Assembly (NCBI GenBank): GCA_011389815.1 | Contig: JAABTP010000007.1 | Span: 1 to 64,000 of the forward strand | DNA length: 64,000 bases | Direction: 5' to 3' | Source: Desulfobulbaceae bacterium | GTDB lineage: Bacteria > Desulfobacterota > Desulfobulbia > Desulfobulbales > Desulfobulbaceae | Part shown: positions 7,321-48,966 of the stretch, in pieces | Layout of the letters: each line of letters starts with the position of its first letter | Position numbering within the stretch: position 1 is the stretch's first letter | Notes under the pieces: model-generated | Told to the model about the DNA's origin: nothing | Database searches by the model: none | What the model saw: the letters and a program-made list of their open reading frames with translations, nothing else | Position numbers and translations under genes: made by a program

Positions 7321-7606
7321 GTCGGCGGTTTACAACAGCGCATTGCATGCTTACAGTAACCCGTTGTAAACGTGCAGTGACGTATATGAAGCTTACAGTG
7401 AGGCATTGCAGGTCTGCAATGTGACGTTGCAAGCTTACAACAGGCCATGTAAAGCTTACATCAAGGCATTGTAAGCGTACAATGAGGCATTGTATGTTTA
7501 CAACGAGCCAGTGCAAGCTTCATGTGCGGCATGTTAAGCCTGCAACGTGACGTTGTAAGTGTACAACTGGGTATGTGAAGCGTACAGTGCGGCATTGTAC
7601 ATATAA
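7321..7606. repeat. Tandem array of about 13.5 degenerate 21-bp palindromic units
   Basis: Units begin every 21 bases without a single insertion or deletion (7321, 7342, 7363, 7384, 7405, 7426, 7447, 7468, 7489, 7510, 7531, 7552, 7573, 7594). Each unit is a 15-16-bp imperfect palindrome plus a spacer of about five bases, often GAGGC or GTGAC. The unit core is close to RTTGTAAGCKTACAAY. Changes on one arm are often matched on the other: ATTGCAGGTCTGCAAT, ATTGTAAGCGTACAAT and GTTGTAAGTGTACAAC. It fills the gap between lemA and the RND gene. Because 21 is a multiple of 3, long open frames run through it on the minus strand, but they show no known protein. Confidence 0.9.
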
Positions 7607-7670
7607 AAAAGAACCGGAAAAACAGCATAGGAGGTTATGATGGCACACTTTCCACGCCGTGAAGCGGATA

Positions 7671-10600
7671 TCAGGGCCTTTCTTTTTCTCCGGAAAGCAC
7701 CCAATACACCTCCAACCTCTTCCGCGCATACCATTCCCCACCAGCCACAAACAGCTCCTTGCTTCGCTCAATCAGGAAATAGAGCACCGGCACCACGACC
7801 AGAGTCAGGAAGGTGGCGACCAGCAGGCCGAAGATCACCACGATAGCCATGGACTGCCACCACTGGCTGGATTCGCTGACCCAGGAAATGCGCAGGTTGC
7901 GGAAGTCGTAGGACACCCCGGTGACCATGGGAATCAGGCCCAGGACTGTAGTTACAGCAGTGAGCAGGACCGGGCGCAGGCGGGTGGCACCAGCAGAGAC
8001 CACGGCCTCAAGCAGGGCAAAGCCGCTTTCCCGCAGCTTATTAGTGTAGTCGATCAACACGATAGCGTTGTTCACCACCACCCCGGCCAAGGAGATCACC
8101 CCGATACCGGTCATGATGACCCCAAAGGGCTGCTTATAGAGCATGAGTCCGAAAAAGGCCCCACCCATGGACAGAATCACTGAAGTCATGATGATAAAAG
8201 GCTGGCTCACCGAGTTGAACTGGGTGACCAGGATCAGGAAGATAAAAAACAGGGCAACAAAAAAGGCTTTGCTCAGGAAGCTCTGGGATTCCTCCTGTTC
8301 CTGATTTTCCCCGGTAAAACGGATGGTATATCCCGGTGGCGGAGGATTCTCAGCCAGGAGTTTTTCAGCTTGCTCACGTACTACAGGCCCTGGAATCTTG
8401 GTTTCATCCACATTAGCCTTGACCGTAATGGTTCGCTGGTTGTTGATCCGGTTGATGTTACCCAGAGAGCCGGTATAATCCACAGTTGCCAAGGTGGACA
8501 AAGGGACAAGGACTCCGCTTGGAGTTGGAATCATGAACTCACGCAACATATTATCATTTTGGCGATACTCTTCCGGCAGCTGGACCGTGATATCATAGTC
8601 CTCATTACCCTCACGAAACGAAGAAATGATCAGGCCGTTATAGGAGGTCTTGATAGCAGAGCCTATGGTATTGGTATTCAGGCCAAACAGGGCTGCCTTT
8701 TTCCGGTCAACCTTGATACGCACTGATGGTGTTCCCTCTACAAAATTATCGCGAATATCTTCGACATGGGGGATTTTTTCCAGAGCAGCCCTGATCTCCT
8801 TGGCAATAGAGGCAAGCACGGCAAAATTATCACCGCTGATTTCAATATTTATCGGCGCACCAGTGGGGGGGCCAGACGCCTCCATGGCCACGGTAACCTT
8901 GGCACCGGCAATATCTTTGATCCGTTTGCGGATATCCTCCACCGTTTCATAGGAGGAGCGGGAGCGGTCTTCCAGATCAAGAAAACGAACCCCCACATGG
9001 TTGGGTGTATTGGGTTCAAACTCGGAACTTCCGCCAGTTGAGGTGACGGCCTTGCTGTAGATAATCTTGACATTTTTCAAATCACTGGGGCCGGGAACGC
9101 CTTCATGGGAGGCTTTTTCTCCTGTCCCTGCCACTGCTGCTTCAATCTGGCGAAGAATACGGTCAATATAATTCAGATCTGCGCCTTCCGGCATATCCGT
9201 GTTCACGTAAATTCCCTTGGGATCAATATCCGGGAAAAATTCCACGGGCTTTTCAATACCAACCACCAGGAGCCAGCCTTGGACCATGAAGATGAGGAGG
9301 AACACGGCAGCGGCAACCAGGGCAAAGGGATGGGCCAGACTGAATCTGAGCAGACCGGCATAGGAGCGCAACAGCGGTCCCCGGATGGTCACTGGTTGTT
9401 CACCGGCTGCTTCTATCTCGGCAGAGGAGACAGTGTCCACTTTTTTGGCACTCTTCATGAACAGCGAGGCCAAGGCCGGATTGATCACCAGGGCCACAAA
9501 AAGACTGGAGGAGAGCGTGATGATCAGGGTCAGAGGTAAGTAGCCCATAAACTCACCCATAATACCGGGCCAGAAGAGCATGGGTGAAAACACAGCCAGG
9601 GTAGTCAGGGTGGAGCCAATCACGGGCATGGCCACCTCTGAGGTGCCCTTCATAGCCGCCTCAACCCGGCCCACGCCTTGCTCCATAAAGCGGTAGATAT
9701 TTTCAATGATGACAATGGCATTATCCACCAGCATACCCAGAGCTAAGGTCAGACTGAACAGGACGATCATATTCAGGGTGATCCCCAAAACATGGAGCAC
9801 CGTGAAGGAGAGCAGCATGGAAAAGGGGATAGCCATACTGACCAGCAGGGCATTGCGGATCCCCATAGCAAAGAAGATGACCACCACCACAAGGGCCAGA
9901 CCGGAGAGGATATTATTCTCCAGATCTGCCACCATATTCTTGGTGTCTTTTGATTTATCCAGAACCTTGGTGATGGCCGTACCGCCAGGCCAGCTTGGCT
10001 GCTTTTTGTGCAGGATGTCTTCCACGGCATCGGCAATGGCAATGATGTTTTCGCCGGAACGCTTCTTGACCACAATATTGACAGCAGGCAGGCCGTTGAG
10101 CCGGGAACGGCTGGTTTCCTCCTTAAAGGTATCCAGCACCCTTGCCACATCACGGGCATAGACCGGTTGACCGTCATGGGTGCCAATGACAAGATCGTAT
10201 AACTCTTCTGGTGTCTTGAATTCGCCAGGCACACGAACCTGGAATTTGCCATCACCCATATGGAGGGCACCGCCCGAGGTGTTGGTGTTTTCACCCCGAA
10301 CAGCAGCCTGCACCGCAGGAAGATTCAGGCCGAAATAGGCCAGTTTTTCCGGGAAAAACTCAATGCGGATCTCCCGCTCCCGTGCCCCGGTGATCTCCAC
10401 ATCCAGTACACCGCTGACACCCTCAATTTCATCTTCCAGATCATCAGCAATCTCTTTGAGACAACGCGCACCGCAGGTTCCGGCCAGAGAAAAAATCAGG
10501 ATGGGCATTTCTGAGATATTGACCTCAAAGACATAGGGATCATCTTCCAGGTCTGTGGGCAGTTCGCCCTTGGCCTCATCCACTTTGTCCTTGACCTTGC

Positions 10601-38741: not shown

Positions 38742-38864
38742 ATTGGTTCATAGGAGGCCAGGAGGAAGGCTCGTAGGAGGCCAGGAGGAGGGTTCATAGG
38801 AGCCTAGGAGATTGGTTCGTAGGAGGCCAGGAGGCGGGTTCACAGGAGGCCAGGAGGGGATTTC
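38742..38864. repeat. Tandem 23-bp repeats (five full units plus a partial one)
   Basis: Units start at 38742, 38765, 38788, 38811 and 38834, each ending in a variant of AGGAGGCCAGGAG and starting with a variable TTGGTTC or GGGTTC part. A partial sixth unit runs into a GTAGGGGC palindrome at 38865. The array is purine-rich on the plus strand and has no coding meaning I can see. Confidence 0.85.
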
Positions 38865-39100
38865 GTAGGGGCGACCGGCCGGTCGCCCTTGCATACCACC
38901 CGAAACAACGCTGGGCAAACACGGGGATTTGCCCCTACACACCCGGCGATGAATCAACACAACCCCGTAGGGGTAGACCCCTGTGCCTACCCAAAAATAG
39001 AAAGGGCGGACACGCAGGTCCGCCCCTACTCTGCCCGACGATATCCCCGGCTATATACCCCCGCCACGTTCCGTACGGGCGACCGGCCGGTCGCCCCTAC
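38865..39100. repeat. Cluster of five GTAGGGGC-type palindromes
   Basis: Five inverted repeats lie in a row: 38865-38892 (GTAGGGGCGACCGG with CCGGTCGCCC), 38913-38937, 38967-38992, 39004-39029 and 39073-39100. The outer ends are usually GTAGGGG and CCCCTAC. The inner stems vary in sequence but stay complementary. The last one supplies the stop codon of the STAND ATPase gene. With the 23-bp array this fills the gap 38620-39096, which has no gene. Confidence 0.8.
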
Positions 39101-41106
39101 CCCTGCCGCTCAGCCCGCAGCTGCTCCAGTTCCCCACGCCATTCATCCAATTCAGGGAGATCAAGAGCCTCAGCAATCTCCACGGCCAGGGCCATAGATT
39201 CCTCTGCTCTGGCAAACTCACCCAAGGCTGCCTGGGTGAAGCCAATGTTGATGAGTGACTCTGCCTGACGGTCCTGGTCACCCAGCTCGTAAAAAATATT
39301 CAAGACTTGCTCTTGACATTCCATTGCCTTGGTAAGCTGCCCCTGGTTCTGATAGATGGCACCAAGAGTATCCAGGACAGCTGCTTCTCCGCCCCTGTTC
39401 CCGCCCTCCTGCTCCAGAGCCAGGGCCTGCTTGTAATAGTGCAAAGCCTGGTCATAGTTGTCTTGCTCCTCAAAAAGCTGTCCTATATAATTCAGGATGT
39501 CGCTTTCCTGCTCCTGATCGCCGATCTTCTGACAGAGACTCAGGGCCTGCTGATAACACTCCAGGGCCTGTTCGTGCTTGTCCAGATCCTGATAACTCAG
39601 AGCAATGCCGTCCAAAAGCAATATCTGCTCCTTATTATCATTCAGCTTGCGTGCTCTCTTCAAAGCTGATGTATAGTATGTAATGGCCTGCTCATGCTCC
39701 CCACGCTTCCCGCAGTCATATCCTAAGATATGGTAACACGTTACCTCATCGTAACGGTCCCCGGACTTGCGGGCCGCAGTCAGACGCATCTTCTGGGCAG
39801 CCAGTTGCTCTGGCCAGTGCCCGCTCTGGTCAAGGTACTCCCATATTGCTTTTGCCAGGTCTTGCACCTCTTTCCATTGCTCCCTGTTCAGGCAACTCTC
39901 CATCACCTGCAGGCAATGTATACGCTCTTCATCCAGCAGTGCATAGCCCTCGGGTCCGGCTTTACTGTGCTTCTCAAAGAAATCCCTGTAATACCAGGCC
40001 AGCAATTTATGCGTCACATCACTCAAGAACATCTTCTTGTGTGCGTAAGTGTAAATCAAGATGTGGCTCACTTGCCAGCCTTTGCCACATCTCGCCAGCA
40101 GGCCCATATCCACCAGCTCATTCAGCACCTTGCGGCAAAAGCGCAGATCTCTTTCCGTGGAATGGAGCAACCATGCCTTACGCTGGACAAGCAGGGACTT
40201 GAGCAGTCGACAGAGTTCCCACACCATACGGTGGTTAAAGTGCTTGAGCAGGGCAACATTTGCCCCTTCACGAAAAGGAGCAAAGGCCAATACCCCGATG
40301 ATCTCCAGAGCAAGCCGGGCCTCCTTACTCAATTGATCCACGCTACGCTGTATGATCCCGTCCAAGCCCACGGCCCGATTTTTCCCATTCTGGGCCTTCT
40401 CCATCAACAGCTCTACCTGCAACCAACGCAGGTAGTCCGCCGCAGGCTCTCCGGTGCTGTGCAGGTAATGCCCGGCCAGACGCAGGGCCACGGGCCAGCC
40501 ACCCAGCAGCTCGGCAATCTGCTCAACGGCATCCTGATCCCCGGCATCCCCGCCCCAGGCCCGCAGCACATCCTCGGACTGCTTATCCGGCAGGGGTTGC
40601 AGGTCCAGGCGCAGCGGCCCACAATCGCTTTTCTTCCGGGTGGTGATCAGTACCCCGCATTGCCCGCGCAGGCCCAGCACAGCCGAGAGGTCGCCCGCCT
40701 CCTCAGCCCCGTCCAGAATCAGCAGTACCTGTTTGCTCCCCAGAGCCGCAGCCACCTCCTGCTCCGAGTCGGCCTCTCCCTTGATGCCCAAGGCCAGGGC
40801 AATAGTCTGAACGGCCTTGGCAGTCTCGGCCTGATGGTAAAAGCTGTGAAAGATGATGCCGTCCGGGAAGCGGTCAACAGGGAGCCTGCGCACGGCACGG
40901 ACTGCCAGTGAGGTCTTACCCATGCCGCCGGGTCCGCACACAGCAACCACCTTGTCTGGGTACAGGTGCTTGTCGAGCCAGGCCAGTTCCTCCTCCCGGT
41001 GCAGGAAGATATCGTCCTCAGCAGGCAGGACGCAGGTTGCTTCCGCCTTGGTGGTTGGGTAATGATTATTCTGATCACCATCTTTGTTATGGAATCGGTT
41101 GGTCAT
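39097..41106 (-). CDS. STAND NTPase with NB-ARC-like ATPase and TPR repeats
   Basis: A 669-residue protein. The NB-ARC-type ATPase spans about 35-330: Walker A CGPGGMGKTS (57-66), Walker B VLLILDGAEE, the sensor VLITTRKK and the GGWPVALRLAG helix. Residues 450-640 are five or six TPR repeats (for example HEQALECYQQALSLCQKIGD). STAND proteins are inactive until a ligand is sensed by the repeats. Here there is no fused effector at the N-terminus, only about 35 variable residues, so an effector in trans or a purely regulatory role is expected. A repeat cluster abuts its 3' end. Confidence 0.9.
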   Translation of the reverse strand: MTNRFHNKDGDQNNHYPTTKAEATCVLPAEDDIFLHREEELAWLDKHLYPDKVVAVCGPGGMGKTSLAVRAVRRLPVDRFPDGIIFHSFYHQAETAKAVQTIALALGIKGEADSEQEVAAALGSKQVLLILDGAEEAGDLSAVLGLRGQCGVLITTRKKSDCGPLRLDLQPLPDKQSEDVLRAWGGDAGDQDAVEQIAELLGGWPVALRLAGHYLHSTGEPAADYLRWLQVELLMEKAQNGKNRAVGLDGIIQRSVDQLSKEARLALEIIGVLAFAPFREGANVALLKHFNHRMVWELCRLLKSLLVQRKAWLLHSTERDLRFCRKVLNELVDMGLLARCGKGWQVSHILIYTYAHKKMFLSDVTHKLLAWYYRDFFEKHSKAGPEGYALLDEERIHCLQVMESCLNREQWKEVQDLAKAIWEYLDQSGHWPEQLAAQKMRLTAARKSGDRYDEVTCYHILGYDCGKRGEHEQAITYYTSALKRARKLNDNKEQILLLDGIALSYQDLDKHEQALECYQQALSLCQKIGDQEQESDILNYIGQLFEEQDNYDQALHYYKQALALEQEGGNRGGEAAVLDTLGAIYQNQGQLTKAMECQEQVLNIFYELGDQDRQAESLINIGFTQAALGEFARAEESMALAVEIAEALDLPELDEWRGELEQLRAERQG

Positions 41107-45106: not shown

Positions 45107-46063
45107 ATGAATGCACGAAATATCGAACCACTTGACTTCACCGGTCTCAACACCTACTCCGTCCACGACCGCCACTCCAAGGTAACAGTGGAGGATTTCG
45201 CCCGCCCGGTTCATCCCGGCATGACCGTTGCTGAGCTGATCAATGGCCTGCCCAAGCAGTTTGCCGGGGTAGATTTTCCAGAGTTTATTGATCGGATGAT
45301 GACCGCTTTTCATAATGATCGCCCAATCCTTCTGGGCATGGGCGCACACGTCATCAAGGTCGGTCTGAATCCCATCCTCATTGACCTGATGGAGCGAGGA
45401 ATTATTTCGACTATCGCTCTGAACGGAGCAGGCATCATCCACGACACAGAGATTGCTATGGTGGGACGCACCTCCGAGGATGTAGCTGATGTGCTAGGGG
45501 CCGGGGCTTTCGGGGCAGCCAAAGAGACCGGCGAGGTGCTCAACAGGGCCATAAATCAGGGGGCAGAACAAGGCATCGGCTTAGGTGAGGCTGTTGGCAA
45601 CACCCTGCTCCGGGAAGACTTTCCCTTTAACGAGCAGAGCCTTCTGGCCCAGGCCCGACGGCTGAACATCCCTGTGACCGTGCATGTGGCCGTGGGCACA
45701 GATATCATCCATATCCATCCTGATGCTGATGGGGCAGCCATTGGTCAGTGTAGCCATCATGATTTCCGGGTCTTCTGTAGCTTGGTCAGTGAGCTGGAAG
45801 GCGGGGTTTATATGAATGTTGGCTCAGCGGTGCTGCTGCCGGAGGTCTTTCTCAAGGCCCTTACTGTGGTCCGAAATCTGGGCCATGAGGTGAAGCGGTT
45901 CACCACGGCGAATTTTGATTTTATCCGGGCCTATCGACCTGCCACCAATGTGGTGCATCGCCCTACCCTGGAAGGCGGCAAGGGATTCAATTTCACCGGA
46001 CATCATGAGCTAATGATTCCGCTGCTGGCTGCGGCAATTGTGGACAGGCTGGGGGATACTTGA
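45107..46063 (+). CDS. Deoxyhypusine synthase-like protein
   Basis: A 318-residue protein of the deoxyhypusine synthase superfamily: LLGMGAHVIKVGLNPILIDL, ALNGAGIIHDTEIAMVGRTS, VHVAVGTDIIHIHPDADGAA and GHHELMIPLLAAAIVDRLG near the end. Bacterial members may use spermidine in other transfer reactions, and the substrate here is unknown. The last 15 codons and stop are found again, slightly altered, at 47278-47329 and 47672-47711. Confidence 0.88.
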   Translation: MNARNIEPLDFTGLNTYSVHDRHSKVTVEDFARPVHPGMTVAELINGLPKQFAGVDFPEFIDRMMTAFHNDRPILLGMGAHVIKVGLNPILIDLMERGIISTIALNGAGIIHDTEIAMVGRTSEDVADVLGAGAFGAAKETGEVLNRAINQGAEQGIGLGEAVGNTLLREDFPFNEQSLLAQARRLNIPVTVHVAVGTDIIHIHPDADGAAIGQCSHHDFRVFCSLVSELEGGVYMNVGSAVLLPEVFLKALTVVRNLGHEVKRFTTANFDFIRAYRPATNVVHRPTLEGGKGFNFTGHHELMIPLLAAAIVDRLGDT

Positions 46064-46066: not shown

Positions 46067-46113
46067 AGTGAGGGATTATTCCAGAAAATAATTTGTTCAG
46101 CAGAGAGTATCCA

Positions 46114-47277
46114 ATGCAGCTCAACGAATTTAAGAGATTGGTAAGAGCAGGCGAAAGTTCGCGCGTTGAGTTTAAAGCATGCGACTTTCATAATGATTCC
46201 TTAGCAAAGGAAATCGTGGCCTTTGCCAATATGAAAGGCGGAAGAATCTATATCGGTGTGCGCGATAATGGAGAGCTTGAAGGCGTTGACCGAAAAATCG
46301 AAGAACGCATTGTTAATATATGCAGAAACAATATTCTTCCCTCAATCATCCCTGATATAGAAACATTACTGATTGAGGACAAACGAATACTCTGCATTCA
46401 TATAGACAGAGGCCGATATAAACCGTATAAGGTAAAAAAAACAAATAAGTTCTACATTCGGGCTGGCTCGGTCTCTATCGAACCGAGTAACGAGGAGCTT
46501 GTACGTTTATTTCAGGACGGCGAGCAGCTCCATTTTGAGGTCTCCCCGGTCTTTCCCTATCAACGCAACCAGTTCGACATACTGCGTTTTCGTGATTATG
46601 TGGAAACCTATCGGGGGATAGACTACGACGAGACAGAACTGGACCGGCTCCTGTACAACCTGCACTGCATTGATGAGGAAAATCGTGTGAGCGTACTTGG
46701 TGCCCTCTTCTTTACCAGAACTCCTTCGCGTTTTCTTCCCCAAAGCGGCATAGAGTGCAACTGTTTCGCCGGACCGGACACTGGCAGCGAGATTACAGAC
46801 TATCAGGCTGAAGATTGCAGCATTGTCGAGTGTATTGAATACGCCATCGGATTCGTCAAGCGACACAGCCGTGTCCAGCTTGCCTTTGATCCGGCGACCG
46901 GGCACAGGAAAGAACTTCCGACCTATGATACAGGCATCGTTCGGGAGCTGATCGTCAATGCCTTTATGCACCGCGACTGGTCGATTTTCGGACAGAGAAT
47001 ACGCCTCAACATCTTTACCGACCGCATGGAGGTGTTTTCTCCGGGCAGCTTGCCGAACACATTAAACTTAACCCGTGCATTATCCGGCATTTCCTATTAC
47101 CGTAATCCGATTATTTCACAGATGCTCAAAGATTACAAAATGGCAGACCGGGTGGGACGCGGATTGCAGAAGGTGGTCAACTATTACCAGGAACGCGGCC
47201 TGCGCCCGCCTGTTTTTGATGTGGATCATGCCTCGTTCAGGGTGACGCTTTGGGAAGCTGGGATGAAGCAGGATTGA
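46114..47277 (+). CDS. AlbA_2 (Schlafen-type) domain protein with ATP-binding C-terminal region
   Basis: A 387-residue protein. The N-terminal AlbA_2 domain has ESSRVEFKACDFHNDSLAKE and IVAFANMKGGRIYIGVRDNG. The middle and C-terminal parts match putative transcriptional regulators with an HATPase-like fold: VRELIVNAFMHRDWSIFGQR, IRLNIFTDRMEVFSPGSLPN and a winged-helix-like end RVGRGLQKVVNYYQERGL. Such proteins occur on mobile and defence islands. The gene sits exactly between two copies of the preceding gene's tail, which suggests insertion. Confidence 0.88.
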   Translation: MQLNEFKRLVRAGESSRVEFKACDFHNDSLAKEIVAFANMKGGRIYIGVRDNGELEGVDRKIEERIVNICRNNILPSIIPDIETLLIEDKRILCIHIDRGRYKPYKVKKTNKFYIRAGSVSIEPSNEELVRLFQDGEQLHFEVSPVFPYQRNQFDILRFRDYVETYRGIDYDETELDRLLYNLHCIDEENRVSVLGALFFTRTPSRFLPQSGIECNCFAGPDTGSEITDYQAEDCSIVECIEYAIGFVKRHSRVQLAFDPATGHRKELPTYDTGIVRELIVNAFMHRDWSIFGQRIRLNIFTDRMEVFSPGSLPNTLNLTRALSGISYYRNPIISQMLKDYKMADRVGRGLQKVVNYYQERGLRPPVFDVDHASFRVTLWEAGMKQD

Positions 47278-47329
47278 GATTCCGCTGCGGACGGCGGCGA
47301 TTGTGGATAAGCTGGCTATGACTGAATAG
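47278..47329 (+). repeat. Gene-tail repeat, copy 2
   Basis: It begins GATTCCGCTGC and reads TAAIVDKLAMTE then stop, against AAAIVDRLGDT then stop in the real gene tail. The two are the same length (52 bases) and most bases match. It starts one base after the stop codon of the AlbA_2 gene. Confidence 0.75.
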
Positions 47330-47349
47330 CATGGCGTGTTAATTGAATC

Positions 47350-47575
47350 TTCTGCCGCTTGCAACGCGCAATCTGCCGCTTGAATCAAGACGATTTCAAT
47401 TGAAATCACCCTGATTCAAATTGAAATTGAGACGATTCAAGTGTAAATCGGGGTGATTTAAGTGTGAATCAAGATGATTTAAACTTAAATTGCTCTGATT
47501 TAAATTTGAATTAAGACGATTTAAGCGTAAAACGGGGCAATTTAAGTGTGAATCGGGGTGATTTACGTGGGTTTT
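47350..47575. repeat. Tandem array of about 10.5 palindromic 21-bp units
   Basis: Units begin at exact 21-base steps (47350, 47371, 47392, 47413, 47434, 47455, 47476, 47497, 47518, 47539, 47560). Each is a 16-base palindrome-like core plus a five-base spacer such as GGGGT, AAGAC or AAGAT. Cores include GATTTCAATTGAAATC (perfect), GATTTAAGTGTGAATC and GATTTAAACTTAAATT. The first two units diverge (both contain TCTGCCGCTTG). The period and design match the array at 7321-7606, though the sequence differs. The array occupies most of the gap between tail copies 2 and 3. Confidence 0.88.
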
Positions 47576-47671
47576 GTGGCAGGCAAAACAGGGTTGGGGC
47601 TGTGGATGGTGTGGCTTTCGTGGCGGATGAGACTGACTGCGGAGCAGAGGCCAGTGAGGTGGCTGCGATGA

Positions 47672-47711
47672 TGGCTGCGGCGGTTGTGGACAGGTTGGGG
47701 GAGCTTTGATA
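47672..47711 (+). repeat. Gene-tail repeat, copy 3
   Basis: It matches the real gene end over TGGCTGCGGC, TTGTGGACAGG, TGGGGGA and TTGATA, and encodes MAAAVVDRLGEL followed by a stop. It lies about 90 bases before the next gene. Confidence 0.7.
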
Positions 47712-47800
47712 TAAGTCAGTTTTTTTGTAATTTTAATTCTATGATAACAAAATGTTGCAAATTCATCTCACAGTGCTGAAAAAAAGTGATGGGTGGCAAG

Positions 47801-48658
47801 ATGTCAACAGTTGAAATTAAATACATCTCAATAAATATCACCCCAGAAGTTGGGGCAAATGATTGGGTAGTCGCTGTACGTGTTGTACCAGCCGGTCGTG
47901 ATGGCACGACAGTTTATGGACGCACCTTAATGCCTGGCGAAGAAGATTCTGGTGTTCCGATAAGTTATAATCCGAGTGCCGGGGAAAAGATTGAATTTCG
48001 TCCGGGTGATCTTAAATTTACTATCTACGATATAGATCGGATAGCAGAGGTCGATTCAAACGGATATGCACCTGTTACATATACTATCCAAACATGGCTG
48101 AAATTTTGCGCACCTGTTGATCAGAATCTCTTCCTTTTTCTTGTTGCCGCTTCTAAGCGTCTTGATACGGCATACTTTGCTTATAGTCAAATTACATCTA
48201 TAGCAAAGGACATATCTGGATCTTTTCCGCACCAGTGCCAGCAGATAATTACGGTTCTTGGACTATCCGAATTTCTCTGCATCGCTCTTAACCGAGCAGT
48301 TAACATGCTTCAACAACTTTCTGGAAATTTTTCAATTAATCTACAATTGCCAAATTCGATAACAGGCAATGTGCAGTCACTTCGAGAAATTCGCAACGCA
48401 TTTGAACATATTGAAGATCGTGCGTTAGGAAAAGTCAGAAATAAAATACATCCTGACGCTTTTACGATATTCGATCAAAAAAAAATATTCACAGAAGGTA
48501 TTTTAACATACGGAAAGCATAGCCTAACCCTCCATACCGACATACTCCAAATGCTCCTTGACGCACGTCAAACCCTACTAAAGATTGCGATCAGTATATC
48601 AGGAGGGGATACAATACCTTTTGATGTCAATCAGATGAACTATTCAAAGCACAAGTAA
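47801..48658 (+). CDS. Unknown protein with HEPN-like RNase motif
   Basis: A protein of about 285 residues. The N-terminal 90 residues look like a small beta domain. The C-terminal half is helical and contains LREIRNAFEHIEDR, with the R-N-x3-H (Rx4H) motif that marks HEPN ribonucleases. The family is not named. The start may be one of three nearby codons; 47801 is preferred. It lies just upstream of, and in a different frame from, the xisH-like gene, with which its end nearly overlaps. Confidence 0.6.
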   Translation: MSTVEIKYISINITPEVGANDWVVAVRVVPAGRDGTTVYGRTLMPGEEDSGVPISYNPSAGEKIEFRPGDLKFTIYDIDRIAEVDSNGYAPVTYTIQTWLKFCAPVDQNLFLFLVAASKRLDTAYFAYSQITSIAKDISGSFPHQCQQIITVLGLSEFLCIALNRAVNMLQQLSGNFSINLQLPNSITGNVQSLREIRNAFEHIEDRALGKVRNKIHPDAFTIFDQKKIFTEGILTYGKHSLTLHTDILQMLLDARQTLLKIAISISGGDTIPFDVNQMNYSKHK

Positions 48659-48666
48659 AGATTGAC

Positions 48667-48966
48667 TTGGGAGCCGAAAAAGTAATTGCTGCGGAAAAAG
48701 GTAACGAAAAAATAGCGATAGAGATTAAGAGCTTTGTCAGGCCCTCGGCTGTTTCCGAGTTTCATGCAGCAGTGGGACAGTATATGAATTACCGGAAGGC
48801 TCTTGGAAAAAGTGAGCCGGATCGTCTGTTATATCTGGCTGTTCCGAAAGAGACGTTCAACTCATTTTTCACCCTCCCGTTTATTTCGGAGTGTATTGCG
48901 GATTACAATCTGAAATTGATAATTTACGACCCTGTAAAGGAGGCTGTGACAGCATGGAAAAAATAG
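48667..48966 (+). CDS. xisH: XisH family nuclease-like protein, N-terminally shortened
   Basis: About 99 residues from a TTG codon. It matches XisH from LGAEKVIAAEKGNEKIAIEI onward, with the ExK motif in AIEIKSF, GQYMNYRKAL and DRLLYLAVPKE. XisH proteins are normally about 138 residues; the first 35-40 are missing, and the frame is closed by a TGA at 48622. The Asp that pairs with ExK is just upstream of the TTG (KIDLGAEK). The gene may be a remnant, or translated from an unusual start. It overlaps xisI. Confidence 0.8.
   Translation: MGAEKVIAAEKGNEKIAIEIKSFVRPSAVSEFHAAVGQYMNYRKALGKSEPDRLLYLAVPKETFNSFFTLPFISECIADYNLKLIIYDPVKEAVTAWKK

Follow-up and report, generated by a model that had tools for sequence, protein, structure and literature searches.

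Phased 21-bp palindromic arrays of variable sequence in cable bacteria and a linked fn3-domain gene family

Two arrays in a 64-kb window and their surroundings

The window considered here is the whole 64,000-nucleotide stretch that opens contig JAABTP010000007.1, from a cable bacterium of the genus of Ca. Electrothrix gigas. At 47.4 kb it carries, on the forward strand, an array (array 2) of eight good 21-bp units (47392-47559), each made of a 16-bp imperfect dyad of core type GATTTAARYKTAAATC and a 5-bp spacer. Two degenerate units (47350-47391, ..CTGCCGCTTG..), similar to the 5'-terminal TTTTGCCGTTT units seen elsewhere, precede them on the same strand, and a degenerate 3'-terminal unit (GATTTACGTGGG...) follows at 47560-47575, also in forward orientation. 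An earlier note on this DNA had described an array with a 16-base palindromic core over the full 47350-47575 interval; the good units are confined to its central part, and those at 47350, 47371 and 47560 have 2/8 palindromic pairs. The dyad is present in the good units, but it is not exact, with 4 to 8 of 8 pairs per unit and a mean of about 5.6. The period of 21 bp and the five-base spacer given in the same note are confirmed by direct reading and by a palindrome score above shuffles: 45 of 64 pairs match from 47399 (8 units, spacing 21) and 42 in array 1 at 7.3 kb, while the best values over periods 15-39 in 20 shuffles of the window were 33-39. The PWM score of array 2 is 148.5 at period 21, with no match at periods 19, 20, 22 and 23. 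Rfam covariance models, run against the window, reported only a tRNA at gathering score, and nothing at 47350-47575.

Array 2 belongs to the stand-alone kind, without an fn3-family gene. Upstream and co-directional lies a gene for a protein with SLFN/AlbA_2 and RecG C-terminal-like regions (46093-47277, plus strand); downstream are a gene for a protein without assigned function (47786-48658, plus strand) and a xisH homologue (48667-48966). The leader of the array (47278-47318, plus strand), directly after the AlbA_2 gene stop, is a displaced 3'-end copy from a GSU2086-family gene, which itself occupies 45107-46063, and a further copy is found on the opposite side of the array (47669-47731, plus strand). 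Three such 3' ends (..AAIVDRL..; 46031-46063, 47278-47318, 47669-47731) thus flank the AlbA_2 gene and then array 2, as if inserts had repeatedly arrived at that gene's end. In the relative G006, a single GSU2086 3'-end copy follows the same upstream gene, and there is no array at this place. Genomes of the Ca. Electronema type match the leader and array 2 (query 47278-47565) at 72-77%, some over shorter spans. Copied gene ends likewise flank the arrays L129 and L140. An NB-ARC/TPR protein is encoded on the minus strand at 39097-41106, in a region with many accessory genes (Rpn-like nuclease, AlbA_2, XisH), and a 23-bp tandem repeat (GGTTCATAGGAGGCCAGGAGGAG, 4.9 copies) lies at 38745-38857, upstream of an HU-like gene.

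Array 1 (7342-7609, plus strand) has 12-13 units of 21 bp with core type RTTGTAAGCTTACAAY and a GAGGC-type spacer, and a degenerate unit at 7321-7341. It precedes the remnant of an fn3-family gene start (7637-7681, plus strand), in which AGGAGG is followed by MMAHFPRREADIRA, to be compared with the MARFPRREADIR starts of fn3-family genes; the remnant breaks off at the end of an opposite-strand acrB-like gene. Spacers vary within the arrays, as had been remarked before.

A class of arrays and its linked gene family

The search for further arrays in this genome and in relatives, proposed in the earlier note, turned up many. By pattern and similarity searches, the host genome (4.0 Mb, 233 contigs) holds at least 16; DNA searches of it gave at least 6 further GATTT-type arrays, several more of the RTTGTA type and others with further cores. 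In gene-sense orientation they share one syntax, R.T..M.R|Y.K..A.Y with spacer R...Y, and 88% of 616 units from 50 arrays fit all six key R/Y positions. About 40 distinct core consensuses are found among these 50 arrays, with a mean identity of 0.55, and some arrays contain higher-order duplications with periods of 63 and 84 bp. A four-unit IUPAC pattern (at most 3 mismatches) matches the host genome 131 times forward and 130 times in reverse, against 0 for the reversed pattern, a control that gave 0 matches in cable-bacterium genomes. Ordinary repeat searches would miss such arrays because their architecture is conserved and their sequence is not. We found no account of them in the articles searched.

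Among the genomes sampled, on which all statements of distribution rest, most genomes of the host genus carry arrays, and so do all three that were searched from the genus of Ca. Electronema, which also comprises cable bacteria. A pattern search found them absent from 5 genomes of other genera in the family, and 394 other genomes sampled across Desulfobacterota gave 1 match, a simple repeat. A few arrays are present in Sumerlaeota and Planctomycetota, two unrelated phyla, together with the same gene family.

This family encodes proteins of about 200 aa, with a helical N-domain (M.FP..EA.I.ALAQ.II.GL..N..FP.PP) and an fn3 domain. An array lies upstream of 26 of the 29 intact family genes read, which include those of a Sumerlaeota genome, the planctomycete and one further genome of that phylum; the exceptions by our detector are L074, L075 and L092, and weaker arrays precede the genes L049 and L194. 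The family genes inspected have their own Shine-Dalgarno and ATG downstream of the array, and their leader is probably transcribed, since promoter-like matches are found upstream. Leader, array and fn3 gene are copied together, up to the fn3 stop codon, and decayed copies of this module are common. The earlier note had suggested looking for a conserved DNA-binding protein restricted to array-bearing genomes. A co-occurring family was indeed found, but it does not resemble a DNA binder, and it is missing beside some arrays and from at least one genome that has arrays (G006). We rejected the fn3 protein as the binder: its AF2 model consists of helices 7-21 and 34-86 plus fn3, and the PDB matches listed concern fn3 only, as do those of the protein searches. 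In their helical N-domain, the proteins of L046, L047 and L072 show a weak, sub-threshold likeness to the PQLLE family of NCBIfam (NF052641).

Many arrays have no fn3 gene and lie between ordinary genes, in Sumerlaeota as well. Going by names read from translations, such sites include dxr/rseP, carA/carB, a position beside trpB and positions before pentapeptide-repeat genes. The last kind is seen at L137 and L136, and at L137 the first 42 bases of the pentapeptide-repeat gene have a second copy at the far side of the array. At L162, around 4000 and 3000 (G004), an array is seemingly split by an inserted transposase-like gene. A comparison of the flanks of about 48 arrays yielded a clear direct repeat only at L137 and a weak inverted repeat at L131, besides the copied gene ends at array 2, L129 and L140; terminal repeats or target duplications were not found as a general feature. 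Flanking direct repeats being present in few arrays only, we do not retain site-specific insertion.

Constraint and dyad co-variation

The earlier note had supposed a class of element that keeps its architecture rather than its sequence, and comparison of core halves bears this out. Between array consensuses, left and right halves of the same core match at 0.78, versus 0.54 across arrays (z 9.3), and after collapse to 11 types below 65% identity the values are 0.65 versus 0.47 (p = 0.0006). In nine orthologous or paralogous pairs, which are related data, arrays diverge by 5-20% and flanks by 7-60%, the array being lower in 9/9: 6% versus 27% for L130/L138, 5% versus 23% for L064/L078, 11% versus 36% for L058/L059, and a nearly equal 6.5% versus 7.0% for L067/L073. 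The aligned arrays are free of indels, save for a single pair in which 63 bases, or three units, are involved. The substitution profile is dyad-symmetric, slow at positions 3, 4, 6, 11 and 14 and fast at 5, 12 and in the spacer, and changes at R/Y positions are mostly transitions. The arrays are a well-delimited, constrained non-coding element (the coding tests are given below) in organisms with little experimental genetics.

Deviations at positions 7/10 are usually one-sided (41 double deviations versus 89 expected, z -9.7), and the weak half-site of each unit points away from the middle of the array, with a positive gradient in 40/45 arrays (p = 4e-8). Avoidance of perfect palindromes and an array-wide dyad are two possibilities here. 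Within-unit compensation is absent from cable-bacterium arrays, where inner pairs are anti-correlated; in Sumerlaeota arrays, compensation in the outer arms is weakly positive (z 2.7). A single global hairpin axis per array was suggestive, but is confounded by the orientation gradient, and we set it aside.

Possible function and comparison with known systems

The reading we put first, with a confidence falling just short of even, is that the arrays are phased docking tracks for a homodimeric DNA-binding protein, with a regulatory role near fn3 genes. Each 16-bp core would be one dyad operator for a dimer, and the exact 21-bp spacing, two turns of B-DNA, would stack 8-20 dimers on one face of the helix, where cooperative binding could give rise to a filament or a wrapped complex. 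Recognition would be partly by DNA shape, as the letters change from one array to the next but the R/Y pattern hardly does. When formed in the 5' leader of an fn3-family gene, such a complex would act as that gene's control element; the stand-alone arrays, many of which would derive from copied leader-array-fn3 modules after gene loss, would still serve locally, in regulation or in the nucleoid. The protein, its cooperativity and its regulatory output are what we infer here. Dyad sites, helical phase and dyad-symmetric constraint all fit such docking, and there are no matches at periods 20 and 22. We did not find a matching DNA-binding protein; the gene that co-occurs best is predicted to encode a long helix and an fn3 barrel. 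Several observations speak against docking: so many distinct cores would call for either a tolerant binder or more than one, the avoidance of perfect symmetry at positions 7/10 is not needed in a simple symmetric operator, and some predicted hairpins are very stable. Curvature, predicted with wedge values, is raised in only 20/45 arrays, and phased A-tracts were thus rejected as the invariant feature. If docking is correct, the arrays offer a natural palindrome series for studying DNA-shape recognition and phased cooperative binding. More tentatively still, they may represent a hitherto undescribed class of bacterial DNA element that is read by shape and not by fixed sequence, in which each locus has its own palindromes, and the R/Y grammar, the 21-bp phase and the array-wide dyad are kept across phyla within a copied fn3 module.

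Alternatively, the leader-array-fn3 block could be a selfish mobile module; the stand-alone arrays would then be what is left of it, REP/BIME-like or MITE-like debris that has no function for the host. The sharing of the whole block up to the fn3 stop, its common decayed copies, the direct repeat at L137 and the position of array 2 between copies of a neighbouring 3' end that is single-copy in G006 speak for this hypothesis. However, stand-alone orthologous arrays are better conserved between species than their flanks (L130/L138), terminal repeats or target duplications are not general, the module encodes no recombinase, and searches by protein in phages, plasmids and viral contigs were negative. 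We regard this hypothesis as unlikely, without being negligible. Should docking prove wrong, the copied module would be a new type of dispersed repeat.

A structured RNA is another candidate. The array, as a transcribed 5' leader or a free RNA, would then fold through its self-complementary units and regulate the fn3 gene, either in cis or in trans, in the manner of a riboregulator or a type III antitoxin RNA. The arrays do follow promoter-like sites and precede the ribosome-binding site of the fn3 gene, and folding predictions are usually strong for either strand, with most of them lying far below those of dinucleotide shuffles. Moreover, real substitutions keep the folding energy when compared with random ones (z -7.3). 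This effect is gone, however, under a null that preserves unit position and base (z -1.1, on nine pairs only, a limited power that leaves a weak pairing signal possible). There is no excess of G-U over A-C mispairs (428 versus 501), two-sided compensations are few, L071 folds no better than shuffles, and some stand-alone arrays (L130/L138) are antisense to both neighbours. Because the folding effect vanishes once the motif is preserved, and G-U is not above A-C, selection appears to see the motif and not a particular pairing. Self-complementarity goes no further than the motif demands, and G-U is not preferred, which favours recognition at the DNA level over RNA folding; the RNA hypothesis is in our opinion unlikely as well.

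As 21 bp equal seven codons, the repeat might also encode heptapeptides, intact or decayed, and several arrays do have one or two open frames (for example NLNLNQA-like heptads). In six frames, however, stops number 163, 220, 62, 238, 146 and 157, versus 160, 224, 59, 253, 148 and 137 after column shuffling, and substitutions in the nine pairs show no 3-nt periodicity. The arrays are non-coding, since stops are not depleted and this periodicity is lacking; the fn3 gene also has its own start after the array, and the two tests refute heptad coding for the array set, making it very improbable as an explanation. A last possibility is chance, or else mere slippage of short unrelated sequences, the latter named in the earlier note as a refutation of its own view. 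The higher-order duplications of some arrays would fit it, but it is refuted by the many further arrays, the empty reversed-pattern control, one syntax common to 50 arrays in three phyla and the conservation of individual units between species.

Known systems resemble the arrays in part. Like REP/BIME elements, they are intergenic, palindromic, regularly spaced and dispersed, and known BIMEs bind proteins (PMC2817692). In contrast to one near-uniform palindrome per genome, of about 20-40 nt and in high copy, they have a 16-bp unit in a rigid 21-bp phase, about 40 consensuses under one R/Y syntax and a link to fn3 genes; no RAYT transposase, the REP/BIME partner, was recognised beside the two window arrays. 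In phased centromeres such as ParR/parC, cooperative dimers bind to tandem sites at intervals of about two turns of the helix. The arrays would work alike, but they exist in many chromosomal copies with different cores, and no partition genes were recognised beside the two in the window. Plasmid iterons are also tandem repeats of about two turns; they are direct, non-palindromic and next to rep genes, whereas the arrays have dyad cores, and no replication initiator was present among the window-array neighbours tested. Type III toxin-antitoxin loci, with ToxI upstream of ToxN, share short tandem repeats upstream of a gene of about 200 aa, but their RNA repeats are near-identical and precede an endoribonuclease toxin, whereas array units are degenerate, the protein is helix plus fn3 and many arrays are geneless. 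Finally, CRISPR repeats are regular too, but they are near-identical and separated by unique spacers of similar length, whereas array cores are variable (16 bp) with spacers of 5 nt, and no cas genes were recognised among the neighbours examined.

Two other 21-bp dyad repeats fall off the common pattern. One, at L044 (2318-2520, C204), is of type TAACGGACATCCGTAA, lies off the array PWM and is possibly coding. The other, at L083 (2032-2240, G007), has very different letters (AGAGAGGTACCTCTCT) and open heptad frames, and adjoins a distant (26%) homologue of the fn3-family N-domain.
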